The position numbers and the translations under genes are program-made. A stretch of 64,000 nucleotides of DNA. Source: Lacticaseibacillus absianus (GTDB lineage Bacteria > Bacillota > Bacilli > Lactobacillales > Lactobacillaceae). Each line of letters opens with the position of its first letter. The stretch's first letter is position 1. The notes under the pieces were generated by a model, which was not told the origin of the DNA, ran no database searches, and saw nothing but the letters and a program-made list of their open reading frames with translations. Below, one piece after another: positions 64 through 60,771 of the stretch. Location: assembly GCF_013407595.1 (NCBI RefSeq), contig NZ_JABEKX010000001.1, forward strand, positions 700,522 to 764,521. The letters are read 5' to 3'.

Positions 64-99
64 CGCGATGAGCCTGACCGGCGGCTGAGACCCAATGCG

Positions 100-175
100 G
101 TTTTAGCCCAGTGGATAAGCGACAATGCCTGTGAGACCCGAGCTTGGGTTTTGCAGGCATTGTCGCTTATTCGGC
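100..175. repeat. Hairpin repeat element, copy 1
   Basis: A perfect 17-bp inverted repeat (115-131 and 154-170, ATAAGCGACAATGCCTG in the left arm) encloses a loop with a smaller dyad of the type ACCC-N6-GGGT. It is preceded by TTTTAGCCCAG. The flank (TTTTAGCCCAG, or CTGGGCTAAAA on the other strand) and the loop core (ACC..AG.T..GGT) recur in elements near 55.1/56.9 kb and at 59.6 kb, so this looks like one member of a dispersed hairpin family. No T-run follows the stem, so a simple terminator is unlikely. Confidence 0.7.
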
Positions 176-336
176 TTGCGTTGCCCGGTCTAACGCAGTG
201 AGTGACGCGCAGATAGGCGTTAGCATGGGAGTTGGATTTTGTCTCGTCTTGGTCAGGCATTGTCGGGCATCGACTGTGAGTCGTTGATGATGATTCAGCC
301 GCTTTTCGGTTATCGCCCCAGTTTGGCCCGGTCCCC

Positions 337-35553: not shown

Positions 35554-37293
35554 TCACTGCAACGCCGCGAGGATATCCGCGGTGATCTGGGCCGGTGTCA
35601 AGTGGTCGCGCGCCATCAGCTCAGCGGTCGACTCGCGGTCGTTGAACTGGCGCTTGGCGCCCACGGTCAGCACCTTCGTCGCCGTTGGGCCGAAGTGGCC
35701 GGCGACTTTTTGGCCAAATCCACCGTCCAGGCTGCCTTCTTTCAGCGTGACGACGAGCTCGTGGTCAGCTTGCAAGGCGTCTAGCTCGGCGGGGTCAACG
35801 GCGTTGGCACTCCGCGGATCAATCAGGGTCGCGTCCACGCCATGCGAGGTTAACTGGGTCGCGACCGCCTGGGCGGTCGCCAACATCGAGCCCAGCCCGA
35901 GCAAGGCGACGCGGTGCCCTTGATGCAGAACGTGCAGGCCTAACGGGGTGAAGGTCGGCGTCAGCGGGGCGTGTTGCACCCCGTGGGCCGGTACGCGGAT
36001 CGCGATCGGACCGGCCGTCTGAGTCAGCGCCCAATCGAGCTGGGCCGCCAGTTCCTCGGCGGTAGTCGGCGCAAGGTAGGTGAGGTTCGGGATGTTGGCG
36101 AGCATCGCGATATCGAAGGTCCCTTGGTGCGTCGGGTCACCGCCGGAGACAGCGCCGCCGGTGAGGATCAGGACTGCTGGCAGCCGGTTGATCCCGAGGT
36201 CGTGGCTCAGCTGGTCATAGGCACGCTGCAAGAAAGTCCCGGAGTGGAAAACGACCGGGCGCAGGCCTTGCTGCGCCATGCCAGCGGCCAGCGTGATCGA
36301 GACCTGTTCGGCGATTCCGACGTCGAGGTAGCGGTGCGGGTAGTCCGCCGCGAAGCGTTTGAGGCCGAACGATCCCGGGATCGCGGCGTTCAAGGCGTAG
36401 ATCGGGGCCCCTTGGGCGATCTTCGCTTCCAGCTGGTCGAGGATCAGACTCGGGTAGCTTTCGCCAGTGCGCGGGCGTAGTGGGTCGCCGCTGGCCAGGT
36501 CGAACGGCACGTGCCAGTGCCAGCGTTCCTTATCGGTGACCGCCGGCGCGTAGCCCAGGCCCTTGGTCGTGTGGACGTGCAATACGACCGGGTGAGCGGT
36601 GTCTCGAACGGCTTCGAAGGCGCGGATCATTGCCGCCACGTCGTTGCCTTGCGGTTCGTAGCGGTAGTCGAGACCCATCGCTTTGAAAAAGTTCCGCTCG
36701 GCGTGGCCATTCGTCTCGCGCAACAGCGCCAGGTTCGCGTAAAGCCCGCCGTGATTCTCGGCGATACTCATCTCGTTGTCATTGACCACGATGATCAAGT
36801 TGCCCGCCAGGACCGCTGCGTTGTTCAGCGCCTCGAAGGCCAACCCGCCGGACAGGGAGCCATCGCCGATCACCGCCACGATATTGCCTGGGGCGTGAGC
36901 GTGGTCACGCGCAAGCGCCATTCCGGTCGCCAGACCGATCGACGTGGAGGTGTGGCCGATGGTGAAGAAGTCGTGCGGGCTTTCCTCCGGGGCGGTGAAG
37001 CCGCTGACATCGTCGTAGTGCGCTGGGTCGAGCCAGGCCTGCTTGCGCCCAGTCAGAATCTTGTGGGTGTAGCTCTGGTGTGAGACGTCCCAGACCACCT
37101 TGTCCGTGGGGGAGTCGAACACATAGTGAAAGGCGAGCGTCAGCTCCACGTCGCCAAGGTTCGGCCCGACGTGCCCGCCTGTCTGGCTGACCTTCGTCAG
37201 CAAAACGTGGCGGATCTCCGCGGCCAGCTGCGGTAGCTGATCAACGGTCAACCGCTTGAGGTCTTGAGGTGAATCGATATGATCGAGTAACAT
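35554..37293 (-). CDS. dxs: 1-deoxy-D-xylulose-5-phosphate synthase (short form)
   Basis: 579 residues, about 40 shorter than E. coli Dxs. The thiamine-diphosphate region carries GGHVGPNLGDVELT, WDVSHQSYTHKILTGR, GHTSTSIGLATGMA, VIGDGSLSGGLAFEALNNA and VVNDNEMSIAENHGG; the transketolase central domain carries HSGTFLQRAYDQ and the ALILTGGAVSGGDP-type segment. It condenses pyruvate and glyceraldehyde 3-phosphate to DXP, a precursor of MEP-pathway isoprenoids, thiamine and (in some bacteria) pyridoxal phosphate. No other MEP gene is in the window. AAAGGAG precedes the ATG. Confidence 0.92.
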   Translation of the reverse strand: MLLDHIDSPQDLKRLTVDQLPQLAAEIRHVLLTKVSQTGGHVGPNLGDVELTLAFHYVFDSPTDKVVWDVSHQSYTHKILTGRKQAWLDPAHYDDVSGFTAPEESPHDFFTIGHTSTSIGLATGMALARDHAHAPGNIVAVIGDGSLSGGLAFEALNNAAVLAGNLIIVVNDNEMSIAENHGGLYANLALLRETNGHAERNFFKAMGLDYRYEPQGNDVAAMIRAFEAVRDTAHPVVLHVHTTKGLGYAPAVTDKERWHWHVPFDLASGDPLRPRTGESYPSLILDQLEAKIAQGAPIYALNAAIPGSFGLKRFAADYPHRYLDVGIAEQVSITLAAGMAQQGLRPVVFHSGTFLQRAYDQLSHDLGINRLPAVLILTGGAVSGGDPTHQGTFDIAMLANIPNLTYLAPTTAEELAAQLDWALTQTAGPIAIRVPAHGVQHAPLTPTFTPLGLHVLHQGHRVALLGLGSMLATAQAVATQLTSHGVDATLIDPRSANAVDPAELDALQADHELVVTLKEGSLDGGFGQKVAGHFGPTATKVLTVGAKRQFNDRESTAELMARDHLTPAQITADILAALQ

Positions 37294-37304
37294 GTGAACT
37301 CCTT

Positions 37305-37352
37305 TGCATACTAGTATGCTTATATTTTGGAAGTGTCACATGGCGATGTCAA
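37305..37352 (-). promoter_or_regulatory. Probable dxs promoter and 14-bp palindrome
   Basis: Minus-strand TTGACA (37347-37352), 17 bp, CAAAAT (37324-37329). Between it and the ribosome site is the perfect palindrome GCATACTAGTATGC (37305-37318), which could be an operator or a short RNA stem. Confidence 0.5.
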
Positions 37353-38410
37353 TCCCAATTTGAGCGGGTGTCGGCAGGGTGAGACCCGAAGTGACGTTGG
37401 CGCGGTCGGGTGATCGCTTGCTGGTCGACGGTGAGCTCGTAAGGCGCATGCCTGAGGCTTCACCTGGGGATTTGTTTACTGCTTTCTGATCGTTGTCGAG
37501 CTCCGGACACGCCGTGCGCGTTACGGCCTGACATGCGGTAGAAAGGCAACCTGTCGCCCTAAGTTCGACTCCGCTGCGCTCTGGTTCGTCGAGCTGCGAA
37601 GCGCATGCGGGTTGGGCTAAGTCGGCCCAACGCAAGGCCACGCCTGGGGCCTTATCATTTTGGGGTGCTTGCTTACTGCTTCCCGATCGTCGTCGAGCTC
37701 TGCAAGGCCAACGCGGGCGCGTCTAGCTACGCCCACGAGTCCTCCGCTCTGGTTCGTCGAGCTGCGAAGCGCATGTGGGTGCGGTCCAAGACGTCCAAAC
37801 GCAAGGCCACGCCCGGGGCCTTATCATTTTGGGGTGCTTGCTTACTGCTTCCCGACCGTCGTCGAGCTCTGCAAGGCCAACGCGGGCGCGTCTAGCTACG
37901 CCGGACACCTTGGACCCAGGAGCGGTCCAAGGCGCCCGGCTAGGCTAGCCGTCCCGCTAAGGGCGGCCTTGCGCCGCTCTGGTTCCAGACACACCAAAGC
38001 CGCCCTCAGGGCACCTGAGGACGCCTTTGGCTGACTTACCGCGGCGGTCCCGCGGGGCCTCACCGGGGCCTTGAGTCTCTCGGCTTACCGGTGGGGTGGT
38101 GGCACCGTGCAGTCTGTGCCACCGCCTGATTGTCCCGCCAAGTTCAGACGACTTGGCGTGGCCGCTTGCGACGCTGCGATCACCACCGTCTTGCCTTGTG
38201 CCCGGTGGTGTCATCCGACTTCGACCATCTAACGTGAGCATACTCATCACGCCTCACTGTATCGATACTCTGGGTCGAGCCTACTGAGGACGCGATGCCC
38301 CTGGATGATTTCGGCTACCCGTTGGTGAACGATCGCGTTGCGCTGACGCGATCACCAGGCGAGCTCCCCATGAAGTACCTGCAGTCTACTGCGGACCAAC
38401 TTTTTTGGCA
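37353..38410. other. About 1.06 kb of structured, repeat-containing non-coding DNA
   Basis: No ORF with a ribosome site or recognisable protein is present on either strand. Instead there is a series of dyads: CCTTGGACC/GGTCCAAGG (37908-37932), CCAAAG..CTCAGG/CCTGAG..CTTTGG (37993-38030), GTGGCAC/GTGCCAC (about 38098-38122), GCCAAGT/ACTTGGC (38138-38158), CACCACCG/CGGTGGTG (38180-38210) and GATCGCG/CGCGATC (38331-38353). A T6 run lies at 38401-38406. The density of stems suggests a large structured RNA, or a decayed one. Strand, ends and function are unknown. Confidence 0.55.
37578..37902. repeat. Tandem 169-bp repeat (two good copies, one decayed)
   Basis: The segment 37578-37733 recurs at 37747-37902 with high identity (period 169 bp); both hold GGTTCGTCGAGCTGCGAAGC, an AAGGCCACGCC...GGGGCCTT dyad and a shared end GCGCGTCTAGCTACGCC. 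The block between the hairpins differs (GTTGGGC/GCCCAAC stem in copy 1 only). A degenerate third copy is recognisable around 37425-37520 (TTGTTTACTGCTTTCTGATC against TTGCTTACTGCTTCCCGATC). Function unknown. Confidence 0.85.
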
Positions 38411-38450
38411 AACAAAACGACTCGCGCGTCCGATCGGCGGCGCGAGTCGT
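38411..38450 (-). terminator. Intrinsic terminator of the padR operon
   Basis: Minus strand ACGACTCGCG...CGCGAGTCGT followed by TTTGTTT, just after the stop of the HAAS-type membrane gene. Confidence 0.8.
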
Positions 38451-38458
38451 TGGGGTGG

Positions 38459-39448
38459 TCAGCGTTTGGTGCGGCCGAACAGTGGCTTTTCGAACAGCCC
38501 GCCGACGATCAGAAGGAACCAGGCGAAGGTCCACTCGCCGCCGAGGAAGCCGAAGAGCAAGAAGCCGGTGATCAAACAGGGCCAGTAGAAGGCGCGCCAA
38601 CCGTCGTACCGCACTTTGTCGCGGCGCGGCTTGGCCGTCACCGTGGTGGGTTTGGTGTAGGGCGGGGCTGCCTGCGGACGTGGGGCCGGCGGGTCGAACA
38701 GGGTGTCGACGAATACCGATGGCTGCCGGGTCAGGCGCTGGAAACCGCCGGCGACGATGCTCGTGTAGACGATGTAGTAGACGCCGATCGCGACGAATAG
38801 GAATAGGCCACCGGCGCCGATTGCGCCCTCGAACGCGCCGGTGTTCGCCGCGATTGGCGGCACGACGCTGAGGATGCACATCATGATCCCGCCGACGAGC
38901 CCGATGGTGCGCGGTCGGCTGTAGGCGTCGGCTTGCCCGGCTGCGCGCGCCCGGATGGCCGGGGTGGACGCGAGGGCGCGCATGGCGCGGCTGACGGTGC
39001 GGTAGCCCATCGATGTGGCGATGATCAGACCGATCCCCAGTGCCACCGGCGCGATGAAGCCGAGTGCCGCCAGTGCCCCGCTGTCGATGGATAATGTGGC
39101 GGCCACACCAGGTGCAGCGATCACTAAGGCGATCCCGAGCCCGAGCAGGCGAGCAAAGCGCTCGGTGCCGGCCCAGTAGCCGTCAACGTCGTCGTCGGTC
39201 ATCTCGGGGCGATCGTTCGGTTCGGTGTCTGGGATCGGATCGACGTCCAGCGCGGCGAGCAGCTCATCGATGTCGCCGAACTCGCCGATCACTAACCCCA
39301 GCGCGGTGGCCTCGCTGTGCCCCTTGGCCAGTTCTTCATGGTAGTGGTCGGTCATCAGGTCCAAGAGGTCCTGTTTGGCCTTGGCGGTGCTCGGCGTTTG
39401 CGGCACCGCCGCGAACAACCCGTTGAGATAGGTCTCCAAAGTTTCCAT
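38459..39448 (-). CDS. Membrane protein with N-terminal HAAS/DUF1700-like domain
   Basis: 329 residues. A soluble helical head (about 1-70: ETYLNGLFAAVP, AKQDLLDLMTDHYHEEL, ATALGLVIGEFGDIDELL) resembles the HAAS/permease-prefix domain that accompanies PadR regulators. About six membrane helices follow (100-118, 125-150, 180-200, 208-235, and a pair at 285-320), with a Pro/Thr-rich cytoplasmic loop at about 250-275. Its start overlaps the end of the padR gene region (two bases apart), so both are co-transcribed. HAAS proteins are thought to sense or set envelope state; the specific role is unknown. Confidence 0.8.
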   Translation of the reverse strand: METLETYLNGLFAAVPQTPSTAKAKQDLLDLMTDHYHEELAKGHSEATALGLVIGEFGDIDELLAALDVDPIPDTEPNDRPEMTDDDVDGYWAGTERFARLLGLGIALVIAAPGVAATLSIDSGALAALGFIAPVALGIGLIIATSMGYRTVSRAMRALASTPAIRARAAGQADAYSRPRTIGLVGGIMMCILSVVPPIAANTGAFEGAIGAGGLFLFVAIGVYYIVYTSIVAGGFQRLTRQPSVFVDTLFDPPAPRPQAAPPYTKPTTVTAKPRRDKVRYDGWRAFYWPCLITGFLLFGFLGGEWTFAWFLLIVGGLFEKPLFGRTKR

Positions 39449-59445: not shown

Positions 59446-59627
59446 GTTGTCCTCCTCAAAAAATCTCCAATGCTTTTAGTATACAAGGAAAGTCGGCGCG
59501 CGCCACCGGTCTCAAGTAAAATTTAGTGCTTCGTGGTCAAAGGCGCGACCAAAAAGTGGCCGAGAGATCATCAACGGCTCACGATAGATGCCCGACGATT
59601 CCAGAACAGGACGCGCCATCAAGCGAC

Positions 59628-59709
59628 GCCCAGCGTATAAGTATGACCCCAGCAAAACCTAAGTTCAGGTTTTACTGGGGTCATGGTTATACGCTGGGCT
59701 AAAACCGCG
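59628..59709. repeat. Hairpin repeat element, copy 3 (intact)
   Basis: Arms 59631-59650 and 59677-59696 pair at 18 of 20 positions around a second dyad AAAACCT-AAGTTC-AGGTTTT; the tail CTGGGCTAAAACCGCG matches copies 1 and 2. It lies between the stop of the lactonase gene and the start of uppP. It has the same nested-dyad design as copy 1 but different arm sequence, so pairing rather than sequence is conserved. Confidence 0.85.
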
Positions 59710-59733
59710 TATGGCTGGCTCAGCCTCGTCGGG

Positions 59734-60771
59734 TCAGTCAGCCGGTAAGAAGACGACGTTGACCGCCTCTGGCGTGACGATGTCCTTTTGGCTCTCGGTC
59801 AAAAGACCGGTCTGCGGGTCGCGCCGGTACAGCGTGCCGTTGTCCGTGTTCTGGTTGACGGCTAGCAGATAGGTTTCGGTGAGATCGAGGTTGAAGTCGC
59901 GGGGGAATTCGCCTTCCGTCGACAGCTGCTGGATCTGGGTCAGACTCAAACCGTCTTCGGCGATCGCGTAGGCAGTCAGACTGTTGTGCCCGCGGTTAGA
60001 CAGGTAGAGGAAGCGCCCGTCTTGGGTGATGCGCACGGCGGCCGCGCCGTTGTGCGCCGTCCAGTCTGCCGGGATCGTTTTTTGCGTCTGGCCTTGGGTG
60101 AAGGTGCCCGTGGCCTGGTCGTAGGTCAAGACCGCCACTTGGCTGGAAAGCTCGCCCAGCAGGTAAGCGATCGGGCGGGTCGGGTGGAAGACGAGGTGAC
60201 GGGGACCGAAGCCCGGTGCCAGGGTCAGGACCGTCGGCGTGCCCAGGTGGCCGTCTTCGGCGACCGGGTAGGTGTAGACCTCATCGGTGCCTAGGTCGAT
60301 GACCGCCAAACGTCCGTCTGGGGTCAGATCGGCGAAGTGCACATGGCTGGCGTCTTGTTCCGGCAGCGGGCCGTGGCCGTGGTGCTGCGCGACATCGACG
60401 TCTTTCAGGGTGTGGTCCGCGTTGATCTTGTAGACGTTGACGCGCCCTTCGTGGTAGTTGCTGGCAAACACGAGCTGACGGGATTCGTCGATCGAGATGT
60501 GGGCCGGACTGGACCCAGGGGCCAGCACTGTGTTTAGTACGGTCGGTTGGGCCCCGTTGAGGTCGACGGCGGCCACGCCACCCACGCCGTCACCTGCGTC
60601 AACGACGTATGCGACGTTGGCCTTGGAGACGGCCATGTAGGTGGGCGAGCCCAGGGTCTCGAGGTAAGGGGTCGGGGTGGTCAAGGTGCCGGTCGCGTCA
60701 TCGAATGCCGCCCGGTACAGGCCTTTGCCAGTTTTGCGGGTGTACCCGCCAAGTAAGACGATTTGATTCAC
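59734..60771 (-). CDS. pgl: 6-phosphogluconolactonase-type beta-propeller lactonase
   Basis: 345 residues of the YbhE/Pgl seven-bladed propeller family: GGYTRKTGKGLYR, SPAHISID, NYHEGRVNVYKI, SHVHFADLTPDGR, GFGPRHLVFHP and a FPRDFNLDLTETYLLAVNQ end. The conserved His and Arg of SHVH, GPRH and PRDF lie in the active-site cleft. It likely hydrolyses 6-phosphogluconolactone in the pentose-phosphate route, though lactonase-family specificity varies. AGGAGGC precedes the ATG. Confidence 0.9.
   Translation of the reverse strand: MNQIVLLGGYTRKTGKGLYRAAFDDATGTLTTPTPYLETLGSPTYMAVSKANVAYVVDAGDGVGGVAAVDLNGAQPTVLNTVLAPGSSPAHISIDESRQLVFASNYHEGRVNVYKINADHTLKDVDVAQHHGHGPLPEQDASHVHFADLTPDGRLAVIDLGTDEVYTYPVAEDGHLGTPTVLTLAPGFGPRHLVFHPTRPIAYLLGELSSQVAVLTYDQATGTFTQGQTQKTIPADWTAHNGAAAVRITQDGRFLYLSNRGHNSLTAYAIAEDGLSLTQIQQLSTEGEFPRDFNLDLTETYLLAVNQNTDNGTLYRRDPQTGLLTESQKDIVTPEAVNVVFLPAD

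Follow-up and report, generated by a model that had tools for sequence, protein, structure and literature searches.

What occupies the more than 1 kb of DNA between dxs and the operon that holds padR? The initial annotation of this locus saw no gene there and proposed a large structured RNA or else a degenerate mobile element. The window, by which we mean the whole 64-kb stretch of DNA that was analysed, comes from a 2.84-Mb genome of the Lacticaseibacillus type. Its dxs protein is 82-84% identical to those of the nearest named species, L. kribbianus, L. parakribbianus, and L. daqingensis. The dxs, padR, and GNAT acetyltransferase genes are all present around the interval. Between dxs and padR there is also a gene (38459-39448) without a Pfam match, which we take to be DUF1700 from its place beside padR. 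That positions 37353-38424 are gene-free held up, as none of the four longer ORFs tested across the interval gave a Pfam match (37336-37641 on the minus strand and 37605-37895, 37660-38034, and 38295-38588 on the plus strand).

Comparison with the three named relatives showed that their dxs-padR intervals measure only ∼105-150 bp, where the terminator and the dxs promoter, as judged by eye, nearly touch. In the window, ∼1.05 kb separates the two (Table 1). Because the relatives carry only the short interval there, the ∼1.05 kb is an insertion relative to them, placed in the narrow gap behind the terminator. It is composed of two dispersed, strongly folded, non-coding repeat families, with A units arrayed on the left and a single B element on the right. 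Of the two readings first offered, the mobile element is the closer one, although B, which lacks any gene, is not degenerate.

Table 1. Features of the insertion and its bounds, with a second A-like unit elsewhere in the window
Feature	Position	Strand	Basis
dxs promoter-like site, left bound of the insertion	37324-37352	-	TTGACA-17-CAAAAT; similar site by eye in the three relatives
Array modules plus damaged or partial A units; two 120-nt copies start 169 nt apart here	37407-37858		repeats, own-genome matches
Full A unit, ∼124-nt nested hairpin repeat	37859-37981	+ (model orientation)	covariance model R1, 120.6 bits, E 4e-27 (one of the 46 units used to build R1)
B element of subfamily B1 (437 bp), sharp-ended and non-coding	37988-38424		nine B1 copies aligned with flanks
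T6	38401-38406	+	run of at least six Ts seen in 7 of 13 B copies
Intrinsic terminator of gene 38459-39448 and of padR behind it	38416-38451	-	12-bp stem
Second, diverged A-like unit	59608-59723		R1 match, E 1.1e-5

The left part of the insertion contains the tandem 169-bp repeats that had been pointed out, which we could define as two 120-nt copies, 94% identical, whose starts are 169 nt apart (37614-37733 and 37783-37902). Weak partial matches to R1 were found at 37690-37751 and 37493-37583. When 37550-37960 was searched against the host genome, at least 52 matches were obtained (best 40 of 50 candidates scored). An alignment of 46 units from eight genomes gave a consensus that is one long hairpin interrupted by conserved internal loops. 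These units remained from 77 long HMM matches after length limits (61), removal of redundancy (49), and removal of three low-scoring ones. The conserved letters include GCAACG, CTAGCTACG, GGCTAGGCTAG, and GCTAAG; many units start with TCGTCGAGC, others with TAGTCGCGC or otherwise. In this alignment, 25 of the 29 predicted pairs have changed on both sides with pairing kept. At 59608-59723, the diverged unit lies 10 nt away from the stop codon of the minus-strand ORF 59734-60771, which presumably encodes a lactonase-like protein. A weak match to the A model also lies on the minus strand at window positions 82-201 (E 0.005).

With the covariance model, A was present in 24 of 30 genomes of the genus at E ≤ 0.001. 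Scoring the best 117 candidates per genome gave at least eight matches in 17 genomes, 1-4 in seven, and none in six; the host genome has 38, and G009, G010, G017, and G024 have at least 117 each. Across the family, under stricter filters and with the best 17 candidates scored per genome, A was found at E ≤ 1e-6 in 13 of the 201 genomes sampled (a single match in three of the 13), representing 6 of 40 genera. Arrays hold 1-5 detected units, and arrays without B are common. By eye, a leader-like module of roughly GCTTGCTTACTGCTTCCCGAT precedes the leftmost A unit at L239, L240, L245, L246, and L247 (all in G006) and at B1 loci of the host genome. We found no description of the A repeat in lactobacilli in the literature searched, a search with most subscription journals outside its scope, and no Rfam entry. 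A is a widespread Lacticaseibacillus repeat family, with at least eight matches in 17 of 30 genomes, unusually clean covariation, and, as shown below, a precise address beside gene boundaries.

The right part of the insertion belongs to a different family. Positions 37890-38420 gave at least 26 matches in the host genome (best 40 candidates scored), among which nine that cover the ∼440-bp right part define subfamily B1: the one in the window and eight more, with identities of 79-98%. Copies 96.6-98.2% alike to the window B1 sit at other loci. The nine copies have common ends, with small variants: left GACACACCAAAGCC.. and right ..AACGACTC(G). Four further copies, 97-98% alike, form subfamily B2, which has both ends and internal motifs in common with B1, and the right flanks of the nine B1 and four B2 copies are unrelated. 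A pattern made from the left hairpin of B occurs exactly 13 times in the host genome and in none of 29 other genomes of the genus, and the B1 sequence had no match in 300 other Lactobacillaceae genomes (the best two candidates of each genome scored). The left end of B1 adjoins array modules: in nine loci B1 is the terminal module with array-like modules directly to its left, some of them merely partial, as judged by eye. At the window locus, it sits between the minus-strand terminator and the A array. No terminal inverted repeats were seen when the ends of the 13 B copies were compared by eye. A long autonomous relative of B was sought and discarded, since the left-end pattern returned the 13 copies plus four places with two mismatches, and a stricter pattern the 13 alone.

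At the window locus, the right end of B (GAGTCG..) is the 3′ arm of the gene's terminator (12-bp stem; 0 of 1000 flank shuffles), and the B end provides such an arm in two copies, the window copy included. A general rule that the right end pairs with its flank was rejected: the pairing is clear in only 2 of 13 copies (12 and 10 bp), and a third is weak (7 bp, 41 of 1000 shuffles). With crude ORF picking, 8 of 13 B copies have a minus-strand gene as their right-hand neighbour, at a distance of 3-61 bp.

Both families are folded. The six successive stems named in the initial annotation are all legible by eye; the stem at 37908-37932 falls within the A unit and the other five within B. For B1, we counted 10 pairs with both partners altered; sliding the partners left 0-1, and the covariation score exceeds those of all 500 shuffles. 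Set against this, 10 double-changed pairs also came up in 35 of 500 letter shuffles. At least as many pair types as in the real alignment were seen in 498 of 500 shuffles, and a single division of the copies, three versus six, accounts for nearly all the changes. In one B1 copy (L082, C4:132373-132903), two changes turn mismatches of the first hairpin into pairs and give a perfect long palindrome, possibly through quasi-palindrome correction, which is able to mimic covariation. By folding energy, the minus strand folds as well as or better than the plus strand: z = -2.4 on plus and -3.4 on minus for 37986-38422 (100 shuffles each), and z = -4.6 and -6.2, respectively, for a single A unit (200 shuffles). 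The array part as a whole (37407-37985, plus strand) gave z = -1.2, with 15 of 100 shuffles equally good.

The proposal of a structured RNA divides into two. Covarying secondary structure is present in both families, with very strong evidence in A. The interval is unlikely to be a single-copy ornate RNA gene, because there is no Rfam match and copies are dispersed within one genome; it is probably an insertion of two folded repeat families instead. Rfam release 15, which includes the ROOL, GOLLD, OLE, raiA, HEARO, 6S, and RNase P models among the rest, returned no match at gathering score in the 64-kb window, and under lax thresholds the best match in the interval had E 0.5. Seven loci of relatives gave three matches to miRNA models (best E 0.0016), all far below gathering scores. 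No intron family was among the Rfam matches of the window and these seven loci (group II domain V and intron model). A phage or plasmid origin was likewise rejected, with no match in either collection.

In its original form, an RNA gene on the plus strand would end at the run of six Ts near the right edge, and this run is indeed present. Such a gene would account for the stems, the covariation in B, the z of -2.4, and the lack of a protein, and a weak promoter-like site on the plus strand lies ahead of the interval (37256-37283). Within 37353-38424, no promoter-like site was found on that strand in a scan covering one promoter type. Six or more Ts are found in 7 of 13 B copies (3 of 9 B1 and 4 of 4 B2), the other six B1 copies having 3-5; at least five are kept in 9 of 13 and the run shrinks to 3-4 in 4 of 13. 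Since the run is partly conserved, a transcript could conceivably end there. In the last 30 nt of B, the stretch from the last hairpin to GGCAA, T run included, is far more variable than its surroundings. With no Rfam match, many dispersed copies, a minus strand that folds as well or better, and B found in the host genome only (300 Lactobacillaceae and 29 genus genomes searched), we consider a plus-strand RNA gene very unlikely.

A structure that acts as RNA should tolerate G·U pairs on the acting strand. As a control, covarying pairs of RNase P from the same genus (29 of 30 loci, L144 left out; pairs picked similarly to those of A) gave 86 GT and 34 AC beside 1044 Watson-Crick cells. For A, we used 89 non-redundant units among the best 100 of 116, and the covarying pairs of all stems gave 41 GT and 86 AC beside 1822 Watson-Crick cells. 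In the central stem P4, AC outnumbers GT by 74 to 14; an A·C on the plus strand is a G·U on the minus strand, the one that would be transcribed by read-through from right-hand minus-strand genes. This excess would favor a minus-strand RNA, with the reservation that misalignment may inflate the count because P4 also has 50 other mismatches. Outside P4 there is almost no wobble on either strand (16 GT and 19 AC beside 1822; this total and the former come from different pair lists and are equal by chance), which looks more like pairing kept at the DNA level. An attempt to read the strand of B from wobble gave no signal, with seven GT and seven AC types in shared helices.

To locate A arrays relative to genes, we used two samples. 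Among the first 39 arrays, from the host genome and relatives, the right end lies within 4 nt of a terminator-like A-run in 14 and the left end in none. These runs are those of terminator-like hairpins of minus-strand genes; six right ends flagged through the hairpin of B1 itself are kept outside the 14, and one of the 14 (L121) is weak and lies beside a stop codon. The second sample comprised 60 further loci from eight genomes (G003, G006, G007, G009, G010, G017, G024, and G025), picked from the high-scoring A matches listed in the genus search. It held 63 arrays, or 61 once two at a locus edge were dropped. Right ends, in the plus orientation of the window, adjoin a gene boundary in 50 of the 61 arrays, and left ends in 4. 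ORFs and terminators were assigned mechanically, and the right ends fell into 18 at a terminator (A-run within 6 nt), 23 within 12 nt of a minus-strand ORF's stop codon, 9 at the ribosome-binding site of a plus-strand ORF, and 11 unclassified, a few of these being near-misses by eye. Pseudo-ends slid by 30-400 nt adjoined a boundary in 0-14 of 61 cases, the highest value being at +30. These slid ends are a better control than the left ends because decayed units blur the latter. By eye, arrays of different species adjoin seemingly the same gene ends in four pairs of loci (L094/L238, L229/L254, L118/L253, and L256/L275). It follows that the arrays are not all independent and that some sites are old or recurrent landing points.

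Array growth was examined through unit scores. In 36 of the 48 arrays with several units, the rightmost unit scores higher than the leftmost one (sign test p = 0.0007; repeated with a model from other loci), as it does in 19 of 26 arrays from the earlier loci (p = 0.03). We rejected this as a sign of polar growth, since significance was lost once truncated units were excluded: the 29 arrays with both end units nearly complete divide 18 versus 11 (p = 0.26), and the polarity stems mostly from truncation of the leftmost unit. When each of 99 units was matched within the sampled part of its own genome, the best match lay outside its own array for 74 and inside for 25, with 11 expected, and so local duplication also occurs. 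These results suggest, without establishing it, a serial addition of units beside the gene edge.

Searches for a mover centered on Y1 transposases (PF01797). The host genome has one partial match, and 13 of 30 genus genomes have matches. These include the A-rich G001, G007, G012, G023, and G027, and partially G024 and G025. No match was found in the A-rich G006, G009, G010, and G017, and G005 has seven matches and no A unit. Mobilization of the IS200/IS605 type was rejected on this basis, with one partial match in the host genome and no plain link to A copy number.

Taken together, the insertion is most likely a composite of two REP/BOX-like structured repeats. More broadly, we think it rather probable that A and B are repeats of this kind, set at gene ends in one polarity, which have presumably spread. 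Such non-autonomous hairpin repeats would be copied as a folded single strand and would come to rest, in a single orientation, immediately behind the ends of genes or of transcription. Reinsertion at the same spot would produce head-to-tail arrays of unlike units, with older units displaced and truncated. B would be a younger, species-specific element inserted between the terminator and the A array. Once settled, the repeats may fold into hairpins at the 3′ ends of read-through transcripts, as has been proposed for REP repeats. Against this account, no transposase or other mover was identified for A or B in the Y1 search. The nine right ends at a ribosome site of a right-hand plus-strand gene and the 11 unclassified ones speak against a terminator target, and B has a minus-strand gene end within 61 bp on its right in only 8 of 13 copies. 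A more ambitious version, which we advance tentatively and regard as unlikely, makes A an undescribed class of Lactobacillaceae hairpins added unit by unit, in one polarity, at a transcript or gene end, with B using the same landing point. If true, A arrays would be integron-like, polar, and cassette-free, built by some form of machinery, and B would be a second, larger, species-specific user.

Flush arrays could also arise by deletion back to the gene edge. A and B would then be selfish or neutral insertions that land anywhere, with deletion bias trimming spare DNA up to functional edges. Trimming would account equally for terminators (18 of 61), stop codons (23), and ribosome sites (9) as edges and fits the arrays seen by eye beside apparently the same gene in several species. 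It is harder to reconcile with arrays flush on one side only (50 versus 4 of 61), the left ends being a weak control blurred by decayed units, and we hold it improbable overall. Function as RNA deserves somewhat more credit, and is still doubtful: A and B would fold as hairpins within the 3′ UTR of the right-hand gene's transcript, protecting its 3′ end or insulating the next gene. Covariation in both families, better folding on the minus strand, and the array directly behind a stop codon in 23 of 61 cases are all consistent with this role, as are the covarying pairs of all stems (AC 86, GT 41) and above all P4, where A·C outnumbers G·T 74 to 14 and minus is the strand read into. That same stem has its 50 other mismatches, to which misalignment may contribute, and outside it A shows GT 16 and AC 19 beside 1822, against GT 86 and AC 34 beside 1044 in RNase P. 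A decayed coding sequence or decayed IS would explain a gene-free insertion beside repeats in a genome with one partial Y1 transposase match, and is nevertheless extremely unlikely. The nine B1 copies have nearly one length and the same ends, single-base indels among them would break any frame, and no longer element with the left end of B was found in the genome.

The preferred reading, REP/BOX-like repeats at gene ends, can be set beside several known systems. Like ROOL, GOLLD, and OLE, the interval is long, stem-dense, and non-coding, but it has no Rfam match and consists of dispersed repeats, not one gene; folded multi-copy repeats may pass for ornate RNAs when judged from a single locus. 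Integron attC sites and group IIC introns offer parallels in their use of folded hairpins or terminators for landing, in polarity, and in arrays: A is also folded, of a single polarity, and arrayed. Unlike integrons, no cassettes or genes were seen between A units, and unlike group IIC introns, no group II intron match was obtained in the Rfam scans. B differs from MITEs in that no terminal inverted repeats were seen by eye in its 13 copies.

The pneumococcal BOX, RUP, and SPRITE repeats are described as folded and over-represented between convergent genes, BOX being a modular composite with variable inner units whose terminal inverted repeats were compared with those of an IS (PMC3049150). 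The proposed likeness to BOX concerns overall organization and folding, and B, by eye, lacks such terminal repeats. REPs are reported to be 20-40 bp long with GTAG or CGTC tags, to lie mostly within 20 bp of ORF 3′ ends when in convergent intervals, with others near the 3′ end of the upstream ORF, and in the CGTC group to occur without a dedicated transposase (PMC3733652). A too is high-copy, intergenic, palindromic, and beside gene 3′ ends. Four A-rich genomes (G006, G009, G010, and G017) have no Y1 match, and other A-rich ones have some. A differs from REPs and BIMEs, which are short tagged palindromes, in its ∼124-nt length, its several conserved internal loops, and its head-to-tail arrays. 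For REP-like repeats, whether they land at gene ends or are kept there is now testable by strain comparison.
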